Below are positions 3,597-11,520 of a stretch of DNA of 64,000 bases, piece after piece. The position numbers and the translations under genes are program-made. The notes under the pieces are model-generated. The model searched no databases. It was not told the origin of the DNA and saw only the letters and a program-made list of their open reading frames with translations. The stretch covers positions 62,001 to 126,000 of the forward strand of contig NZ_JACOFV010000003.1 in NCBI RefSeq assembly GCF_014284255.1. Reading direction: 5' to 3'. The DNA is from Cognatundibacterium jejuense. GTDB taxonomy: Bacteria > Pseudomonadota > Gammaproteobacteria > Burkholderiales > Burkholderiaceae_D. Within the stretch, counting starts at the first letter, position 1; every line of letters starts with the position of its first letter.

Positions 3597-4835
3597 ATGG
3601 CCGTCAACTCTCCACTCCCTGTCGCTGCTGATTTAAAACCAGTAGCGGGTATTCGTCTTGGACATGCAGAGGCGGGTATTCGTAAAGCCAATCGTAAAGA
3701 TGTATTGGTCATGGAGTTAGCTCCTACGGCAACTGTTTCCGGCGTTTTTACCACCAATCGTTTTTGTGCTGCGCCGGTGCAAGTTTGTAAAGCACATCTG
3801 GAAGGCTTGCACATGAGTTCAGGTCCAATTCGGGCCCTGGTAGTCAATACCGGTAACGCGAATGCTGGCACGGGTGATGCAGGCTTGGCTGCAGCGAATA
3901 AAACTTGTAGTGCGCTGGCTGATTTACTCGGTTGTGAAGCGGCGCAAATTCTGCCGTTTTCAACGGGTGTGATTCTTGAACCATTGCCAGTTGATCGCCT
4001 CATTGCTGGTTTGCCGCAAGCTATCACTAATTTGAAAGAAGACAACTGGTTCCTGGCTGCTGAGTCAATTATGACCACGGATACCCAGCCAAAAGCCGCC
4101 TCTGCGACCGTGCAAGTTGGTAGCCACACCGTCACAATGACTGGTATCAGTAAAGGTGCGGGTATGATCAAACCTAACATGGCGACCATGTTAGGTTACC
4201 TGGCAATGGATGCCAAAGTTGCGCAACCAGTTCTCGATCATCTGATTAAACAAGCAGCAGATAAGTCATTCAACTGCATTACGATTGACGGCGATACGTC
4301 GACAAATGACTCGTTCATTCTGATCGCGACTGGTGTTGGCAGTCTTGAAGTCAATGATATTGACACACCAGAATATGCGATTCTGGCGAAAGCGGTGATC
4401 GATTTGTCACAAAAATTGGCGCACATGATTATCCGTGATGGTGAAGGTGCCACCAAGTTTATTTCTATCGCTGTTGAACAGGGTCGTGATCTGGACGAAT
4501 GCCGAAAGATTGCCTATTCAATTGCCCATTCCCCATTGGTAAAAACGGCTTTCTTTGCCTCCGATCCAAATCTGGGACGTATTTTGGCAGCGATTGGTTA
4601 TGCTGGTGTTAATGATCTTGATGTCAGCAAGTTAGACCTATATCTGGATGATGTATTGGTTGCTAAAAATGGCGGCCGCAATCCAGAATACCGTGAAGAA
4701 GATGGTCAACGCGTGATGAAGCAAAGCGAAATCACGATTCGCGTTAAGCTCGGTCGTGGTGATGTCGAGACGACAGTCTGGACTTGCGATTTGTCGCATG
4801 ACTACGTGACGATTAATGCTGATTACCGCTCTTAA
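3597..4835 (+). CDS. argJ: bifunctional glutamate N-acetyltransferase / ornithine acetyltransferase ArgJ
   Basis: ArgJ moves the acetyl group from N-acetylornithine to glutamate (and may also use acetyl-CoA), recycling the acetyl group in arginine biosynthesis in the cytoplasm. The precursor cleaves itself into alpha and beta chains before a conserved threonine. The site KPNMATML is present, with cleavage expected between A196 and T197. The substrate-binding segment [11 protein letters not shown] precedes it, and the oxyanion-hole region [11 protein letters not shown] is near residue 121. At 412 residues the length is typical. The ATG at 3597 follows an AAGGA ribosome-binding site. Only 11 nt separate it from the next gene, so they are probably cotranscribed. 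Confidence 0.97.
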
Positions 4836-4846
4836 TCAAATCCACG

Positions 4847-5725
4847 ATGACCCAGCTTGATCAGTTTTTAGCACGTGCCGAGCATGTGCTAAGTCGTCTT
4901 GAGGCACTATTGCCTGGAACTGTTGCCGTACCTGACTGGCAATTGGGTCATGCTTTTCGCTGGCGCAAACGTGGTGGACAAGGTTATTTGCAGATAGTGC
5001 GTCACGCTTGTGTGATCGGTTTGGATGATTTACACAATATCAGCCAGCAAAAGCAGTTGATAGCGCAAAACACGCTGCAATTCGTGCACGGCAAACCAGC
5101 CAATAACGTGCTGCTGACTGGTGCGCGCGGTACCGGAAAATCGTCTTTGATCAAAGCCTGTCTTAATCAATTTGCTCACCAGGGGTTGCGCTTAATCGAA
5201 GTTGATAAAGCTGATCTGGCAGATTTGCCAGATATTGTCGATTTAATCGCTGAGCGTCCTGAACGCTTCATCATTTTTTGCGATGATCTTTCTTTCGAGG
5301 AAGGTGAGGCGGGTTATAAGGCGCTCAAAGTTGCACTCGATGGCAGTATTGCTGCGCAATCCGACAATGTGCTGATTTACGCGACGTCGAACCGTCGTCA
5401 TCTGATGCCAGAAAAAATGTCGGACAATGCCAGCTACCACCATGCCGATGATGGCGACTTACATCCTGGCGAGACGGTAGAAGAAAAAATTTCTTTGTCT
5501 GAACGATTTGGATTATGGGTATCGTTTTACCCGTTCAAACAAGACGACTATCTTGATATCGTTGCGCACTGGTTGCGCAGTTTCTCTTGCACCGAAGATC
5601 AGATTAGCTCTGCTCGTGCTGATGCTTTGCGTTGGGCATTGCAGCGAGGTTCGCGCTCTGGTCGCGTGGCATGGCAGTTTGCACGTGATTATGCAGGTAA
5701 ATTAATGGATAAAGACCATGTTTGA
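4847..5725 (+). CDS. DUF815 family P-loop ATPase
   Basis: This 292-residue protein belongs to the DUF815 AAA-like ATPases, whose cellular role is not established. Walker A GARGTGKSSLIKA is near residue 90, a Walker B-like FIIFCDDLSF lies about 55 residues later, and the sensor-like LIYATSNRRHLMPE follows. No signal peptide or membrane segment is visible. It starts 11 nt after argJ and its end overlaps the next gene by 8 nt, so argJ, this gene and mutT probably form one transcript. The argJ-DUF815-mutT order is common in Burkholderiales. Confidence 0.92.
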   Translation: MTQLDQFLARAEHVLSRLEALLPGTVAVPDWQLGHAFRWRKRGGQGYLQIVRHACVIGLDDLHNISQQKQLIAQNTLQFVHGKPANNVLLTGARGTGKSSLIKACLNQFAHQGLRLIEVDKADLADLPDIVDLIAERPERFIIFCDDLSFEEGEAGYKALKVALDGSIAAQSDNVLIYATSNRRHLMPEKMSDNASYHHADDGDLHPGETVEEKISLSERFGLWVSFYPFKQDDYLDIVAHWLRSFSCTEDQISSARADALRWALQRGSRSGRVAWQFARDYAGKLMDKDHV

Positions 5726-6152
5726 AGTCGCGTCAAAAAATATCAAGCCAGTGGATGTTGCTGTCGGCATCTTGATGAAGCCAAACGGTGATGTCTTATT
5801 GGGGCAGCGTCCCACCGGTAAACCCTATGAAGGGTATTGGGAATTTCCCGGCGGTAAAGTCGAAGCGGGCGAGCCGATACTGGATGCATTAAAACGTGAA
5901 TTCGTCGAGGAGCTTGGCATACGGATACTGAGTGCTGAGCCTTGGTGCGGTGTAGAGCATGTATATCCACATGCTCACGTACGCTTGCACTTCTACATCA
6001 GTCGCGAATGGGACGGTGAACCGCAAAGTCTCGAAGGTCAGGCATTTGCGTGGCAAGGTGAGGTGGGTGTAGAGCCACTGCTGCCTGCGACAATACCTCT
6101 GCTCGAATGGCTGGATATATTGCAAACCGACGCCAATAATTCAGTCATTTAA
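5718..6152 (+). CDS. mutT: MutT-type Nudix hydrolase
   Basis: Nudix enzymes of this class hydrolyse oxidised nucleotides such as 8-oxo-dGTP to monophosphates, keeping them out of DNA. The Nudix box GX5EX7REUXEEXGU is complete: it begins GGKVEAGE and ends REFVEELGI, around residues 45-68. At 144 residues it is close to E. coli MutT (129). Its ATG overlaps the 3' end of the DUF815 gene by 8 nt, a sign of translational coupling. The exact substrate is inferred from family and context. Confidence 0.9.
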   Translation: MFEVASKNIKPVDVAVGILMKPNGDVLLGQRPTGKPYEGYWEFPGGKVEAGEPILDALKREFVEELGIRILSAEPWCGVEHVYPHAHVRLHFYISREWDGEPQSLEGQAFAWQGEVGVEPLLPATIPLLEWLDILQTDANNSVI

Positions 6153-6206
6153 ATTCAGCTAAATAAATTCAGCAACTTAGCACTGTTGTTCGAATTATTC
6201 ATACCA

Positions 6207-6232
6207 GCGTGATACCTCCTGAGGTTTCACGC
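6207..6232 (+). other. hairpin downstream of mutT
   Basis: Ten-base arms (GCGTGATACC / GGTTTCACGC, one T-T mismatch) flank a 6-nt loop. No T-run follows on either strand, so it is not a classical terminator, though it could end or protect the mutT transcript. Confidence 0.4.
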
Positions 6233-6373
6233 ACTTAAGATACCACTTGATGGATCTTTCCATGCTGTCAAGTCAGGTTTTATCTGTCTTTTTATTGCAA
6301 CTCACTCCGTACTTCTACTTATTGCCGGATGCTTTTCTGGCTGCGACTATCCTTATTCGTTTTGATTATAATG

Positions 6374-6391
6374 TGTATTGAAAATAATACA
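6374..6391. promoter_or_regulatory. TyrR-type box 1
   Basis: TGTATTGAAAATAATACA has 6-bp perfect inverted arms around a 6-bp spacer and fits TGTA-N10-TACA, the frame of the TyrR box (TGTAAA-N6-TTTACA). The G and C 14 bp apart that TyrR requires are present. It is centred about 200 bp upstream of the predicted sigma54 start. The likely binder is the TyrR-like protein encoded at 9712-11271. Confidence 0.72.
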
Positions 6392-6392
6392 G

Positions 6393-6410
6393 TGTATTGT
6401 TTTGTGTACA
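6393..6410. promoter_or_regulatory. TyrR-type box 2
   Basis: TGTATTGTTTTGTGTACA again fits TGTA-N10-TACA and lies one base after box 1. The inverted arms extend outwards to ACAGTGTA / TACACTGT (6391-6412). Two abutting boxes suggest cooperative binding of regulator dimers. Confidence 0.72.
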
Positions 6411-6476
6411 CTGTTCAATTTTTGATACGCTGTAGAGGGGACGCTCGGTAATTATTGGCTGTGCAATCAAAAGGCC

Positions 6477-6494
6477 TGTATTGAATTGCATACA
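6477..6494. promoter_or_regulatory. TyrR-type box 3
   Basis: TGTATTGAATTGCATACA is a third TGTA-N10-TACA site. Its centre is 84 bp from the centre of box 2, eight turns of 10.5 bp, so it lies on the same DNA face. It is about 97 bp upstream of the predicted sigma54 start, a normal enhancer position. Confidence 0.7.
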
Positions 6495-6555
6495 CTCTGC
6501 CTTCGGAATTTCAGTATTATTTTGTAAGTCATTGAATTTGTTTGATAAAAATTAA

Positions 6556-6571
6556 TGGCATGAGCATTGCT
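6556..6571 (+). promoter_or_regulatory. sigma54 (-24/-12) promoter of the dad module
   Basis: TGGCATGAGCATTGCT matches the sigma54 consensus TGGCAYR-N4-TTGCW at every defined position, with the required GG-N10-GC spacing. Transcription would start near 6582, leaving a 35-nt leader before the ATG at 6617. The activator encoded at the end of the module keeps the GAFTGA loop that sigma54 activators use. Confidence 0.82.
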
Positions 6572-6616
6572 AGGGTAAAGCAAACTTTTCTCTGTAGCGA
6601 TGGAGTGCTAAAAACT

Positions 6617-7735
6617 ATGCAACAAATAGCAGAAAGAACCGGAGCTGTACTGCGTATCGATTTGCAGGCAGTTCGATATAACTACCGACTACTCCGTGGT
6701 CGCCTGGGCTTGGCTCAATGCGGCGCAGCGGTGAAGGCGGACGCCTATGGCTTGGGAGCCGAGCAAGTAGCACGGGTGTTATACGAAGAAGGATGCCGAC
6801 ATTTCTTTGTCGCTCATCTGGAAGAAGCGATCGCTTTGCGTCCTGGATTGCCCGCTGATGCGGATTTGATCGTCATGCACGGCTCGCCAGTGGGTTGTGA
6901 AGCAGAATTTGTTCAACATGGGTGTATGCCAGTGTTGAATAGCATCCAGCAAATTCAGGATTGGGCTGTACTCGCGCGAGAACGGCAACAATTTTTGCCA
7001 GCCATCGTGCAAGTTGACACAGGTATGGCGCGCATGGGGCTGTCTGCGAAAGAAGTTGAAGTATTACGTGATGATCCAGATTTATTGCGCAGCATTGATG
7101 TGCGGTATGTGATGAGTCATTTGGCTAGTGCTGAAGATCAGGCAAATCCTATGAATCGTCAGCAGTTGGAAAAATTTAATGAACTTCGCGCCTTATTCCC
7201 TCGCAGTAAAGCCACTCTGGCGAATTCTTCTGGTGTGTTTTTAGGCAGCGAGTTTCATTTTGATCTGGCTCGTCCTGGTGCGGCTTTGTATGGTGTAGCA
7301 CCGGTTGCGGGTCAGGAAAATCCTTTACGTGCAGTAGCGCATTTGCAGGGGCGCATTATCCAGACGCGTGAAATTCCGGCGGGAACGGGTGTGGGCTATG
7401 GCTCTACGTGGCGTAGTAAGGAAACAAGTCGCATTGCGACGATAGCTGTTGGCTATGCTGATGGTTGGTTACGTAGTTTGAGTAACCGTGGGGTGGCGCA
7501 TATTGCAGGAATTGCAGCGCCTATGGTGGGAAATGTTTCTATGGATACGATTACGCTGGATGTGACTCACATCGCTCCGGAGTATTTACAACCAGGAACA
7601 TTAGTAGATTTGATTTCGGCAACGAACACAGTGGATCAGGTCGCAGCAAAAGCGAACACCATTGGTTACGAAATTTTGACGAGTCTGGGAGCGCGTTATC
7701 ACCGCGTATATTCAGACCATAAGTCAGATAACTAG
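6617..7735 (+). CDS. alr: alanine racemase (catabolic, DadX-like)
   Basis: This PLP enzyme interconverts L- and D-alanine. With DadA downstream it probably feeds alanine catabolism, and it can also supply D-alanine for peptidoglycan. The PLP lysine is in AAVKADAYGLG near residue 35 and the catalytic-tyrosine region is GVGYGSTW near residue 265. The frame is open back to a TTG at 6542, but a perfect sigma54 promoter at 6556-6571 lies inside that extension. I therefore choose the ATG at 6617, with GGAG at 6602-6605, giving 372 residues, close to the family norm. It is the first gene of a probable four-gene unit. Confidence 0.93.
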   Translation: MQQIAERTGAVLRIDLQAVRYNYRLLRGRLGLAQCGAAVKADAYGLGAEQVARVLYEEGCRHFFVAHLEEAIALRPGLPADADLIVMHGSPVGCEAEFVQHGCMPVLNSIQQIQDWAVLARERQQFLPAIVQVDTGMARMGLSAKEVEVLRDDPDLLRSIDVRYVMSHLASAEDQANPMNRQQLEKFNELRALFPRSKATLANSSGVFLGSEFHFDLARPGAALYGVAPVAGQENPLRAVAHLQGRIIQTREIPAGTGVGYGSTWRSKETSRIATIAVGYADGWLRSLSNRGVAHIAGIAAPMVGNVSMDTITLDVTHIAPEYLQPGTLVDLISATNTVDQVAAKANTIGYEILTSLGARYHRVYSDHKSDN

Positions 7736-7805
7736 TCTTACGCTAAAAAATTCATCCCAATTCAATCATCAGCATTAACGAAAACAGCATATCAGGAGCA
7801 ACAAC

Positions 7806-9092
7806 ATGAAAGTCATCATTCTCGGCGCAGGCGTTATCGGTACAGCATCAGCCTATTTTCTGGCAAAAGCAGGTCACGAAGTCACCGTCATTGAGCGTCA
7901 ACCAGGCGCAGCGTTAGAAACCAGTTACGGTAATGCCGGTGAAGTATCACCTGGTTACTCGGCACCATGGGCAGGCCCTGGTGTGCCTATGAAAGCAGTT
8001 AAATGGCTGATGATGAAACACAGCCCATTGGCAATTCGTCCTACATTTGACTTAAATACCTGGCGCTGGGTCACTCAGATGCTGATGAACTGCACCACAG
8101 CACGTTATGAGACCAATAAAGGTCGCATGTTGCGTATGGCCGAATATAGCCGCGACGTTTTGCAGCAATTACGTGCTGACACGGGTATTTCTTATGATGA
8201 ACGCACCCAAGGGACGCTGCAGTTATTCCGTAATCAGGCGCAATTGGATGGCGCACAAGCGGATATCGATATTCTGAAACGTTACGATGTTCCGTATGAG
8301 ACTTTGGACAAAGCTGGCTGTTTAAAAGTAGAGCCAGCATTAAAGAACGTTCAGGACAAATTCGTTGGCGCTTTACGCTTGCCAGGTGATGAAACAGGCG
8401 ACTGTTTTAAATTTACACAAAACCTCGCCAAACTGGCGGAAGGTTTGGGAGTGAAATTTAAATACGGCGTCAGCATTCAAAGACTGGTGCACGAAGGTGA
8501 CAAAATTACCTCCGTCATAACGTCTGAAGGTGAAATGAAGGCCGATACCTACGTACTTGCCTTAGGCAGCTACTCGCCTATCATGTTACGTGAACTTGGT
8601 ATCAAGATCCCAGTCTATCCGATTAAGGGATACTCAATTACTGTACCGATTACCGATGCCCAACGAGCACCGGAATCAACCGTGATGGATGAAACTTACA
8701 AAGTGGCAATCACACGTCTAGGTGACCGCATTCGCGTCGGCGGCACCGCAGAAATCACAGGTTACAACCTGGATTTGCGCAAAGATCGTCGCGACACACT
8801 GGAATTCTCAGTTACTGATTTATTCCCGGGTGGTGGCGATGTGAGTAAGGCCGAATTCTGGACTGGACTGCGTCCTATGACGCCGGACGGCACGCCAGTC
8901 GTTGGCCCTACACCCTATCGTAATTTATTCCTGAATACCGGTCATGGCACCTTAGGTTGGACCATGGCTTGTGGTTCAGGTCAGTTCATTGCGGATCTTG
9001 TTTCAGGCAAGCGTCCGGCAATTTCAACCGAAGGTTTATTTATGGATCGATATGGCAGTATCAATCGACCAGTTTTTGTCCCCAAGGAGTAG
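7806..9092 (+). CDS. dadA: D-amino acid dehydrogenase small subunit DadA
   Basis: DadA is a membrane-associated flavoenzyme that deaminates D-alanine and other D-amino acids to 2-oxo acids and passes electrons to the respiratory chain. The FAD-binding [17 protein letters not shown] is at residues 7-23 and the C-terminal FAD segment [16 protein letters not shown] is near residue 380. At 428 residues the length is typical (E. coli 432). AGGAGCAACAAC precedes the ATG. The 70-nt gap after alr holds no terminator, so the two genes are probably cotranscribed. Confidence 0.96.
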
Positions 9093-9094
9093 GC

Positions 9095-9682
9095 ATGACC
9101 CAGTTTGAACAATTGCTTTCATCAACGCAGGTGTTCGCAGATGCAAGTCTGAACGCCCGTTTTTATACTGCCATCGAGTTGTTGGCCCAAACTATGATGG
9201 TGATGCCACGTGCAACGACGGTCGATAGTCTGGCATCTGCAACGGGCAAAACCCCGCGTGTAATCCGTTCAATACTGTCGACACTGAGCAAGGATGGTCT
9301 GGTTGGTCGTGACGCCAAAGATAAAGATGCATGGCATTGCCGTGACTGCAATGGCATCATCACTTTGGCTGATGTGTATCGTTGCTTTGCCGATGCTGAA
9401 GAGCGTGCGCAAGCCAAAGCAGCGAAGAAAAACGCAGAAAGCGCAAACGACGCAGCTAAGCCAGGCGATGCGGATGACGTTGAAACAGAAAGCAGTTCAC
9501 TGCGCAGTTCCAGTCAGCACAGCGTCGATTTATTGATGATGCAAGTGAAAATGACAGTCAATCGAGCAGTTGTTCAACAATTGGAGCAATTTGATCTGAG
9601 CCGCTTGCGCGGCTTGGCCACTACGGCAGCGTTCCGCACTCAGTATGCGCGTCCACGGGGCTATATTCCTGAGCCGTACTGA
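9095..9682 (+). CDS. Rrf2-like winged-helix protein with cysteine motif
   Basis: The 195-residue product starts at the ATG at 9095, 2 nt after the dadA stop, with AAGGAG at 9084-9089. Residues 20-98 resemble an Rrf2-type winged helix (TTVDSLASATGKTPRVIRSI, then ITLADVYRC). Where many Rrf2 proteins have a GG-LA wing, this one has HCRDC (C82, C85) followed by C97, a possible metal or redox site. Residues 105-150 are a low-complexity Ala/Asp/Glu/Ser linker, and the C-terminus is basic and aromatic. Position suggests a role in controlling or sensing D-amino acid catabolism. The family call is moderate and the role is inference. Confidence 0.7.
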   Translation: MTQFEQLLSSTQVFADASLNARFYTAIELLAQTMMVMPRATTVDSLASATGKTPRVIRSILSTLSKDGLVGRDAKDKDAWHCRDCNGIITLADVYRCFADAEERAQAKAAKKNAESANDAAKPGDADDVETESSSLRSSSQHSVDLLMMQVKMTVNRAVVQQLEQFDLSRLRGLATTAAFRTQYARPRGYIPEPY

Positions 9683-9711
9683 TATCTTCAACGCAACAAT
9701 AAAGCCCTTTC

Positions 9712-11271
9712 ATGCGCATTAATATTCAGTTCAAGGACAGGGTAGGGATTGCTCACGAAATTCTGGCGGTGTTGGCCAAACGTGGTCTGAACGTCGTGGC
9801 GGTGGAGGTGGATCCACCCAACATCTACATCGACAGCCCTGAATTGCTTGAATACATGCTGCCCGACCTGCAAGCCGATTGCCAGCAGGTCAAAGGGGTA
9901 GGTGAAATTCAGGTTCTCGACGTGCTACCCGGTATACGGCGCCGATTGCATCTCGATACCATGATGGCGGCTATGGAAGATCCCGTGCTGGCGATCGATG
10001 GGAATGGTCGTGTCATGGTTGCAAATGCAGCGGCCGCAGCTGTTGCGGGGGCAAGTGAAACAGCACTTGGCGGGATGCGCTTGAGTGAGCTGCTGGATGA
10101 TCCCGAAACGCAGAATGAATTGATCAAGGCTGGCTTCCGGATACCTAGCCGTGAAGTGACACTCAAGGGCGAACCTTTCTTTATGGAAGTGACGCCAGTA
10201 TCTGAGCCACTGATTCAGGAACTATCTCCAAGCGGTCGCTCTGTCGGCGCAGTATTGAGTTTTCATACGCCAGCCCGTATCGGTGGGCGGTTACACGCGC
10301 TCCAAAATTCAGCTGGCAATGGTTTTGACTTAATCATTGGTGAGTCAGAGCAAATCCGTGCTTTGAAAATCAAGGCTGCACGTGTTGCGGTGGTCGACGC
10401 ACCGTTACTAATTACCGGTGAAACGGGCACTGGCAAGGAATTGCTGGCGCAGTCTTGTCACGGTATGAGCTCCAGAGCGAACGCACCGTTTCTCGAACTT
10501 AATTGTGCCGCGTTACCAGAAAGTCTGGCGGAGAGCGAATTGTTTGGCTATATGTCTGGGGCATTTACCGGCGCGCAACGCGGCGGCAAACCCGGTTTAT
10601 TTGAAATGGCTGACGGTGGTACGGTTTTTCTCGATGAAATCGGTGAAATGTCCTTGTATTTGCAGGCCAAGTTATTACGTTTCTTAAATGATGGAAAGTT
10701 TCGTCGTATTGGCGGCGACAAGGAAGTCAAAGTCAATGTCCGCATCATCAGCGCCACGCACAGAAATTTACGCAAAATGGTACAGGAGGGCTTGTTCCGC
10801 GAAGATTTGTTCTATCGGCTGAACGTTTTGCATCTGGAGGTACCAGCCCTGCGAGACCGTCCAGATGATATTTTGCCCTTAGCGCGGCATTTTATTGAAC
10901 GTGCTTGCACGCAATCACAAAAGCCGATTTGTCGCCTCAATTCGTCCGCTTGTGCTGTTTTAGTGTCGAATCGCTGGCCAGGGAATGTGCGGCAATTGCA
11001 AAACGTGGTATTCAGGGCGATTACCATGTCCGATCAGCGCGTGTTAGATGCCGTTGATCTGGATTGGGCAGAAGGCAGTATCAGCGCCGATGAAGTCAAT
11101 CTCGATACAACAGAAAATTGGGAGTTGTCGGTGAGCGCCTTTGAGCAATCTTTGCTTGAGCGGCTCTATCCTCAGTATCCATCTAGCCGCAAGTTAGCGG
11201 CTAGATTACAAACATCGCACTCTATGATTGCAACGAAATTGCGTAAGTATGGGATTCCGGGTAAGCGTTGA
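9712..11271 (+). CDS. TyrR-like sigma54-dependent transcriptional activator
   Basis: Domains are in TyrR/PhhR order: an ACT-like ligand domain (about 1-70), PAS (about 82-190), AAA+ ATPase (about 205-440) and a C-terminal helix-turn-helix (about 475-519, RKLAARLQTSHSMIATKLRK). Walker A is GETGTGKE (236-243). The sigma54-contacting loop GAFTGA (283-288) is intact; it is absent from E. coli TyrR, so this protein should act at -24/-12 promoters as PhhR does. Three TGTA-N10-TACA boxes and a perfect sigma54 promoter precede alr, 3 kb upstream, and are the obvious target. The effector may be an aromatic amino acid or alanine; I cannot tell which. Confidence 0.9.
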   Translation: MRINIQFKDRVGIAHEILAVLAKRGLNVVAVEVDPPNIYIDSPELLEYMLPDLQADCQQVKGVGEIQVLDVLPGIRRRLHLDTMMAAMEDPVLAIDGNGRVMVANAAAAAVAGASETALGGMRLSELLDDPETQNELIKAGFRIPSREVTLKGEPFFMEVTPVSEPLIQELSPSGRSVGAVLSFHTPARIGGRLHALQNSAGNGFDLIIGESEQIRALKIKAARVAVVDAPLLITGETGTGKELLAQSCHGMSSRANAPFLELNCAALPESLAESELFGYMSGAFTGAQRGGKPGLFEMADGGTVFLDEIGEMSLYLQAKLLRFLNDGKFRRIGGDKEVKVNVRIISATHRNLRKMVQEGLFREDLFYRLNVLHLEVPALRDRPDDILPLARHFIERACTQSQKPICRLNSSACAVLVSNRWPGNVRQLQNVVFRAITMSDQRVLDAVDLDWAEGSISADEVNLDTTENWELSVSAFEQSLLERLYPQYPSSRKLAARLQTSHSMIATKLRKYGIPGKR

Positions 11272-11312
11272 ATTCTGGCTGAAGCTTGCATTAAGGATTG
11301 CCAATGGCGGTA

Positions 11313-11495
11313 TTAATGCAAATCTTCAGCTTCCGGATCTTCTGGCAAGTTGACGGCTGGAATCGTGTATTTCTCTTCAGCCCAGGCGCCCAGATCAATT
11401 TGCTTGCAACGTTCTGAGCAAAAAGGACGGAAGCGGTTTTCAGTCGTCCATTCTACTTTGGTGTTGCAAGTCGGACAGTTTACAAAGGTAGCCAT
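11313..11495 (-). CDS. yacG: DNA gyrase inhibitor YacG
   Basis: YacG is a small zinc protein that binds GyrB and blocks gyrase from binding DNA. This 60-residue product has the four-cysteine zinc site CPTC...CSERC and the following [12 protein letters not shown], typical of the family, with an acidic C-terminus. It is the last gene of the pilB-C-D-coaE-zapD-yacG run on the minus strand, 58 nt after zapD across a spacer with a 13-bp repeat. It converges with the TyrR-like gene. Confidence 0.93.
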
Positions 11496-11520
11496 GTTCA
11501 GGTGTTTCGGTAGTCAAAAT

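Follow-up and report, generated by a model that had tools for sequence, protein, structure and literature searches.

A conserved TyrR-box and sigma54 control region upstream of the sole alanine racemase gene found in Undibacterium

The 64,000-nucleotide stretch of Cognatundibacterium jejuense DNA analysed here (the window) carries a real and conserved control region; its regulatory kind is known, but its consequence for the supply of D-alanine to the cell wall is unusual. Three TyrR-type boxes and a sigma54 promoter site precede genes for alanine racemase (alr), D-amino acid dehydrogenase (dadA) and a TyrR-like protein, and we consider it probable (about 0.8) that this protein acts as a sigma54 enhancer-binding activator of the alanine-catabolic operon, its own gene included. 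What was observed comprises the sites and the conservation of their order and phasing, the domains of the protein, the linkage of the genes and a gene swap. To the original prediction, which had named the boxes, the promoter and the regulator, our analysis adds an IHF-like site, a weak fourth box, the finding that no racemase gene other than alr was detected and a published precedent for the pairing of TyrR with dadA.

The gene run and its upstream sites

The module consists of four genes that run in one direction in the order alr-dadA-(Rrf2-like)-tyrR, separated by gaps of 70, 2 and 29 bp. The first, alr (6617..7735, + strand), encodes an alanine racemase of the dad-linked lineage that contains PF01168 and PF00842 and scores 239.1 bits against TIGR00492 (cut-off 168); it falls short of the tighter model NF000792, with 331 bits and a cut-off of 384. 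The dadA gene (7806..9092, +) matches the D-amino acid dehydrogenase model NF001933 at 706 bits (cut-off 383). The third gene (9095..9682, +) is a weak call as an Rrf2-like winged-helix gene, with a PF02082 score of 20.4 bits that lies below the cut-off of 30, and an NCBIfam search with its product gave no match. The gene of the tyrR-like putative sigma54 activator is located at 9712..11271 (+), where the original prediction had placed it, and encodes ACT, PAS, AAA+ (with GAFTGA) and HTH_50 regions.

In the TyrR-like protein, PF00989, PF00158 (the sigma54-interaction AAA+ domain; 229.3 bits, cut-off 20.2) and HTH_50 score above their cut-offs, and the ACT domain, PF01842, reaches 25.5 bits, just under its cut-off of 27. 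The protein carries the GAFTGA motif, a Walker A motif (GETGTGKE) and a Walker B motif (VFLDE), and its residues 1-191 match the solved N-domain of E. coli TyrR (2jhe) with an E value of 9e-17. Its score of 471.1 bits against the NCBI TyrR equivalog model NF008085 does not reach the cut-off of 576, and thus we do not file it as an E. coli-type TyrR; by its combination of ACT, PAS, AAA+ and TyrR-type HTH it belongs to the TyrR family in the wide sense. The window's genome also contains rpoN.

Upstream of alr, exact TGTA-N10-TACA matches are found, as originally predicted, at 6374..6391 (box 1, TGTATTGAAAATAATACA), 6393..6410 (box 2, TGTATTGTTTTGTGTACA) and 6477..6494 (box 3, TGTATTGAATTGCATACA), with no strand assigned to these or to the other boxes and the IHF-like site. 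Boxes 2 and 3, both conserved across loci, are 84 bp apart, and box 3 lies 79 bp upstream of the sigma54 site. A weak fourth box, box 2b (TGTTCAATTTTTGATACG, 6412..6429), has two mismatches and sits 19 bp 3' of box 2. The sigma54 -24/-12 promoter at 6556..6571 (+ strand) is TGGCATGAGCATTGCT, an exact consensus match in agreement with the original call, and transcription would be expected to start near 6582. An IHF-like element, TAAGTCNTTGAAT, is found between box 3 and the promoter and matches the IHF consensus, YAANNNNTTGATW; the IHF-like site at 6525..6537, TAAGTCATTGAAT, has one mismatch to this consensus. An Rfam scan over 4500-11500 gave 0 matches at gathering score.

The TGTA-N10-TACA motif occurs four times in the window against a mean of 0.55 expected, and four matches were reached in 0/100 shuffles. 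In the whole genome (4.44 Mb) it is found at 38 places, three of them within these 121 bp, and the reversed control is commoner, with 76 places; the signal is thus the cluster of three boxes and not the single motif. Sigma54 sites with one mismatch allowed are at chance in the window (9 seen vs 8.3 expected), which leaves conservation as the basis of the sigma54 call. For these reasons motif counts alone were rejected as proof, and the case for a control region is made by the clustering of three boxes in 121 bp together with the conservation of that cluster.

The same intergenic region holds an inverted repeat, TAGAG-N6-CTCTA, at 6433-6448, with two mismatches. With zero or one mismatch, the repeat is present upstream of alr in 11/24 Undibacterium promoters that have an Rrf2-like gene at the locus (L058, L060-L063, L069-L071, L073, L074 and L076) and in 0/13 of those whose locus is without one. 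Our guess is that this dyad is the operator of the Rrf2-like protein.

Conservation and phasing in Undibacterium

For comparison we used 40 tyrR loci, 39 from Undibacterium (the window's own included) and one from another genus. The regulator is present at E <= 1e-100 in 38/42 other Undibacterium genomes, and the four without a match (G007, G018, G020 and G040) are 56-89% complete. In 39/39 Undibacterium loci dadA adjoins tyrR, with the Rrf2-like gene between them in 25. Three of the 40 loci (L075, L091 and L092) are without an alr start, and the 37 promoters scored, from 37 of the 39 Undibacterium loci, all contain a GG-N10-GC sigma54 site with at most one mismatch to TGGCAYGNNNNTTGCW.

The layout test required a spacing of exactly 19 bp from box 1 to box 2, of 64-91 bp from box 2 to box 3 and of 61-92 bp from box 3 to the promoter, and a promoter passed when boxes 1-3 and the sigma54 site occurred in this order with at most four mismatches in 24 fixed positions. 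The Undibacterium promoters pass in 34/37 cases (32/37 at three mismatches or fewer), compared to 0/1,110 dinucleotide shuffles; L088 and L090 have no box triplet within the allowed range. Retention of the boxes in related genomes that have the module had been set beforehand as a test of the original prediction, and the boxes are indeed kept in most loci. In most of the 37 loci, box 1 has at most one mismatch and precedes box 2 by exactly 19 bp, and box 2b, with at most two mismatches, is found in 22/35 called Undibacterium loci and 0/26 called outside loci. The same sites also lie upstream of alr in G035, where the alr start is on another contig, and in G018, which has no tyrR match.

Two tandem boxes with zero or one mismatch occur in 27/43 genomes, always at the alr promoter by coordinate; with two mismatches, tandem boxes also match elsewhere and the reversed control matches too. 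An exact box with a sigma54 site 45-75 bp on is found 33 times in 32/42 genomes, 31 times at alr and twice elsewhere (G038 and G017), with 0 cases in the reversed control, and the alr promoters of the remaining genomes have imperfect boxes or longer spacing, or are unassembled. By this combined box and sigma54 criterion the regulator has one consistent predicted target within the genus, alr.

The distance from box 2 to box 3 is 79-84 bp in 34/35 called Undibacterium loci, the exception being L055 (64 bp), which is a poor call. The eight helical turns that the original prediction assigned to this interval therefore hold roughly in the genus but not everywhere, and a strict eight-turn spacing across families is ruled out by distances of 68-69 bp in L172, L185 and L198. 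Box 3 and the sigma54 site are separated in called loci by 68-73, 79-83 or 90-92 bp only, and gaps of 74-78 and 84-89 bp are unoccupied though the whole range of 61-92 bp was allowed. The distances thus step by about one helical turn, as enhancer looping onto a promoter requires, and the steps look as though they arose in several lineages. L088 has box 3 102 bp upstream of the sigma54 site, and the natural variants (about 71, 81, 91 and 102 bp) would suit studies of enhancer-promoter phasing. L090 (G009) does not fit the helical-turn steps: ~184 bp separate its sigma54 site from the nearest exact box on the upstream side. It differs from its sister genomes in this distance and in having no IHF-like match at the usual place.

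IHF-like matches (zero or one mismatch, either strand, in the 70 bp that precede the sigma54 site) are present in 48/61 loci against 8.6 expected from shuffles. Many of them are unremarkable singly, and it is their place relative to the sigma54 site that is conserved in most loci: the IHF-like match usually precedes the sigma54 match by 30-33 bp, the distance being 41-42 bp in subclade 2 (12 genomes with a regulator 71-74% identical to that of the window), L077, L078 and L223, and 52 bp in L088. The best match lies elsewhere in L069 and L074, and, besides L090, the usual place holds no IHF-like match in L174 (Skermanella), three Azospirillum loci and L204. Neither PMC6375630 nor PMC4894688 uses the word IHF in its main text.

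The loci also bear on which protein binds the boxes. The Rrf2-like protein or another factor could occupy TGTA-N10-TACA in place of TyrR, given that the Rrf2-like gene sits in the same gene run, but we regard this as highly improbable: the boxes are present in Undibacterium loci without an Rrf2-like gene (L077, L078 and L080-L090), they track tyrR through gene swaps and both orientations, and they share the 18-bp form that PMC4894688 describes as bound by GcsR.

Relatives outside the genus and the likely signal

Outside loci were collected by a scan of genome contigs with the N-terminal alignment of the regulator, and the best 80 of at least 542 loci were used. Among these best 80, dadA is near tyrR in 44, 19 of which are from Undibacterium and 25 from others, including Noviherbaspirillum, Azospirillum, Skermanella, Azoarcus, Aromatoleum, Denitromonas, Thauera, Dechloromonas, Caldimonas and Rhodoferax; outside Undibacterium the two genes are co-directional or divergent. 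We scored 27 outside promoters, namely 23 of the 25 dadA-linked ones, that of G167 (L130) and three before the alanine dehydrogenase gene, ald. L169, in which a contig end cuts dadA, and L177 were left out; in L177 dadA lies beside tyrR with neither boxes nor a sigma54 site. The layout test is passed by 21/27 of these promoters and by 0/810 shuffles, and the failures are L188, L204, L208, L221, L130 and L161, the box triplet of L188 being a poor call with 11 mismatches and L161 yielding none within the permitted distances. Chance or artefact, that is, coincidental motifs in an AT-rich intergenic region, would fit with each motif alone being near chance in the genome or window; set against the full layout in 34/37 and 21/27 promoters and in 0/1,920 shuffles in all, its probability is negligible.

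The regulator is patchy in the order, with 10/399 genomes matching at E <= 1e-75, among them four Undibacterium and three partial matches, and in the class it is found in 5/369 genomes at E <= 1e-95, the window's own included. The motif G[AS]F[TS]GA is present in 32/33 dad-linked rows of the regulator alignment, L208 being the exception. In the regulator tree a 44-row group with support 90/89, which is below the starred level, holds all 33 dad-linked rows together with 11 rows that are not dad-linked.

Two outside loci, L168 (Herbaspirillum sp. ST 5-3) and L171 (a metagenome bin), have the same ATPase and Nudix genes as the window's locus and regulators 71% and 70% identical to the window's, respectively. 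Neither alr nor dadA was found within the DNA fetched around these two regulators, and alanine dehydrogenase replaces alr-dadA. The L168 enzyme scores 539 bits against TIGR00518 (cut-off 391.85) and the L171 protein is 95% identical to it. Before ald, both loci contain a box pair, box 3 located 82 and 81 bp after box 2, and a perfect sigma54 site that is preceded, at 31 bp, by a perfect IHF-like site. The ald gene of L161 (88% identical) is separated from the regulator by ~4 kb and has sigma54 and IHF-like sites and no boxes.

Because non-homologous alanine enzymes share one control region, alanine and not an aromatic amino acid is the likely signal, as judged solely from the neighbouring genes. 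That Alr-DadA and Ald, which degrade alanine by unrelated routes, share one type of enhancer and promoter points to the signal of this branch and makes its TyrR-like proteins testable as alanine sensors.

The original prediction had also allowed for control of the aromatic-amino-acid type. If the protein sensed aromatic amino acids as E. coli TyrR does, alanine catabolism would be merely one output; the TyrR-type domains, the ACT domain and the conservation of Arg10 of E. coli TyrR are consistent with this, as is a distant relative of the regulator (L131:2019-7466, G360) whose gene and a divergent gene of the indolepyruvate ferredoxin oxidoreductase family flank two boxes and a sigma54 site, each with one mismatch. 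Against it, the position of E. coli Asp103, a residue which we take to be needed for aromatic ligands, is Met in the TyrR-like protein (a literature search for E. coli TyrR Asp103 found no paper naming the residue), and within the genus the box and sigma54 combination recurs only at alr. Moreover, the close relatives have alr, dadA or ald behind their sites, and the A. brasilense relative is needed for D-alanine use (PMC6375630). We consider aromatic sensing unlikely, and this part of the original prediction is not supported. Another distant relative of the regulator, without a GAFTGA match (L143:2613-7392, G610), is followed by two exact boxes and a two-mismatch sigma54 site and then by the genes for an AGCS-type amino acid carrier and for an L-serine ammonia-lyase.

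In the mechanism that we favour, dimers of the TyrR-like protein would bind tandem boxes 1, 2 and weak 2b as well as box 3, and the segment from box 3 to the promoter would be bent by IHF. The ACT-PAS region may bind alanine, in its L or D form or as a closely related product, and this would lead to assembly of the protein, the GAFTGA loop of which would open sigma54-RNA polymerase at 6556-6571. Alr would convert L-Ala to D-Ala and DadA would convert D-Ala to pyruvate and ammonia, and co-transcription of tyrR would provide positive feedback. That the neighbouring TyrR-like protein controls the alr-dadA module, as had been proposed, is supported by GAFTGA, the conserved boxes and sigma54 site and the gene linkage, which make it the likely activator. 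Self-activation, likewise part of the proposal, is probable because tyrR follows alr-dadA in the same direction.

Proposed D-alanine supply from the one racemase gene found, and known systems

A PF00842 search gave a single matching gene per genome in 38/43 Undibacterium genomes, that of G035 being divided between two contigs, and one such gene is present in 36/36 genomes that are at least 90% complete. By coordinate this single racemase gene is the tyrR-linked alr, and in the window's genome alr is the only PF00842 gene. Undibacterium Alr shares 54-60% identity with nine dad-linked racemases from elsewhere and 58% with the second copy in G047, compared to 24-34% for 19 other racemases of the family and order and 30% for E. 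coli Alr and DadX. The racemase tree (43 rows; three rows below 300 residues are left out) separates the dad-linked from the usual Alr set with 99/97 support. The low identity and the tree split indicate that Undibacterium is without the family's usual Alr. Alanine racemase is normally needed for cell-wall building and, since the only racemase gene found is the dad-linked alr, a cell-wall gene would stand behind an activator-dependent promoter. This raises the question of how the genus secures its cell-wall D-alanine.

A D-amino-acid-transaminase-like gene is present in 29/42 genomes, with scores of 244-275 bits that lie under the cut-off of 277.45; it was not found in G040 (56% complete) or in any of the 12 subclade 2 genomes, of which nine have a completeness of 95% or more. 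In the window's genome this gene (L290:2286-3131, contig C11) is, by eye, beside dacC-like and ybeD-like genes.

The 11 subclade 2 promoters (L080-L090, upstream of alr) contain a conserved island of ~36 bp that joins box 3 to a sigma70-like extended -10 and ends in TGTTARAAT. The 30 columns from TTGTATTTA on, box 3 included, average 97-99% per ten columns, where 20 columns are conserved partly by choice as the rows were anchored by a pattern from box 3, and the 40 columns upstream of TTGTATTTA average 47-66%. All 11 rows held the anchor pattern, and the next 16 columns are independent of it. Variation inside TGNTANAAT affects the N and the third -10 base, positions at which an extended -10 tolerates variation. 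The island is probably a sigma70 promoter overlapping box 3; such a promoter could supply D-alanine without the activator, and TyrR bound on box 3 could shut it. The presence of the island together with the absence of the transaminase-like gene amounts to one evolutionary contrast. By eye, the genes upstream of alr in L292 and L293 (G041 and G038) look like ruv and purH, not argJ-ATPase-Nudix; as the upstream genes of subclade 2 differ from the window's set, the module has moved.

Transcription of alr could come mainly from a constitutive promoter or from read-through, with sigma54 control mattering only for extra dadA expression. Basal expression is to be expected because no second alanine racemase gene was found, and subclade 2 has its sigma70-like island; however, no sigma70-like promoter above chance was found in the window at 6100-6640 (1 found vs 1.8 expected), and the island is absent from the other Undibacterium loci aligned. 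We consider such a predominantly constitutive supply possible but doubtful. In a bolder reading, likewise possible but doubtful, the usual Alr has been lost and D-alanine for the cell wall would come from a catabolic-type racemase with a main promoter dependent on sigma54, TyrR and alanine; in subclade 2, where the transaminase-like gene was not found, the fusion of box 3 with a sigma70 promoter would let one operator switch an essential gene from housekeeping to catabolic transcription.

The literature search found nothing on TyrR with alanine racemase and D-amino acid dehydrogenase, nor on Undibacterium with alanine racemase; the literature searched likewise showed no example of such a run of genes containing the sole alr, of its exchange for ald or of phased spacing. 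Several known systems are nevertheless comparable in part. E. coli TyrR shares with the window's protein the order ACT, PAS, AAA+, HTH and the form of the 18-bp box, which PMC4894688 gives as TGTAAA-N6-TTTACA, but it is without GAFTGA, which the window's protein has, and the two are 40% identical. DVU0569 of Desulfovibrio vulgaris, a sigma54 activator predicted to control ald (PMC4641369), is alike in being a sigma54 activator predicted to act at an alanine-degrading gene, and the passages that describe it do not call it TyrR-like. GcsR of P. aeruginosa, a TyrR-like enhancer-binding protein that drives glycine catabolism, binds three tandem sites of 18 bp ahead of an RpoN promoter (PMC4894688). 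The Undibacterium region likewise combines three 18-bp sites, a sigma54 promoter and catabolism of a non-aromatic amino acid, and differs in that the module is for alanine and not glycine and in the GcsR site, TGTAACG-N4-CGTTCCG. In our regulator tree the Pseudomonas sequences form a separate group, which may or may not include GcsR/PhhR.

A close precedent is A. brasilense Sp7, for which A. oryzae and A. canadense stood in among the loci compared. According to PMC6375630, its tyrR mutant has no dadA mRNA and fails to grow when D-alanine is the sole source of carbon, and tyrR is divergent from dadA with three TyrR boxes and a -12/-24 site between them. The same type of arrangement is found here, with a GAFTGA-bearing TyrR encoded beside dadA and three boxes and a sigma54 site before the operon. 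Together with GcsR, this precedent means that the regulatory kind and the TyrR-dadA pairing were already known; unlike in A. brasilense, the Undibacterium tyrR is co-directional and follows alr-dadA, and the racemase gene is part of the run.
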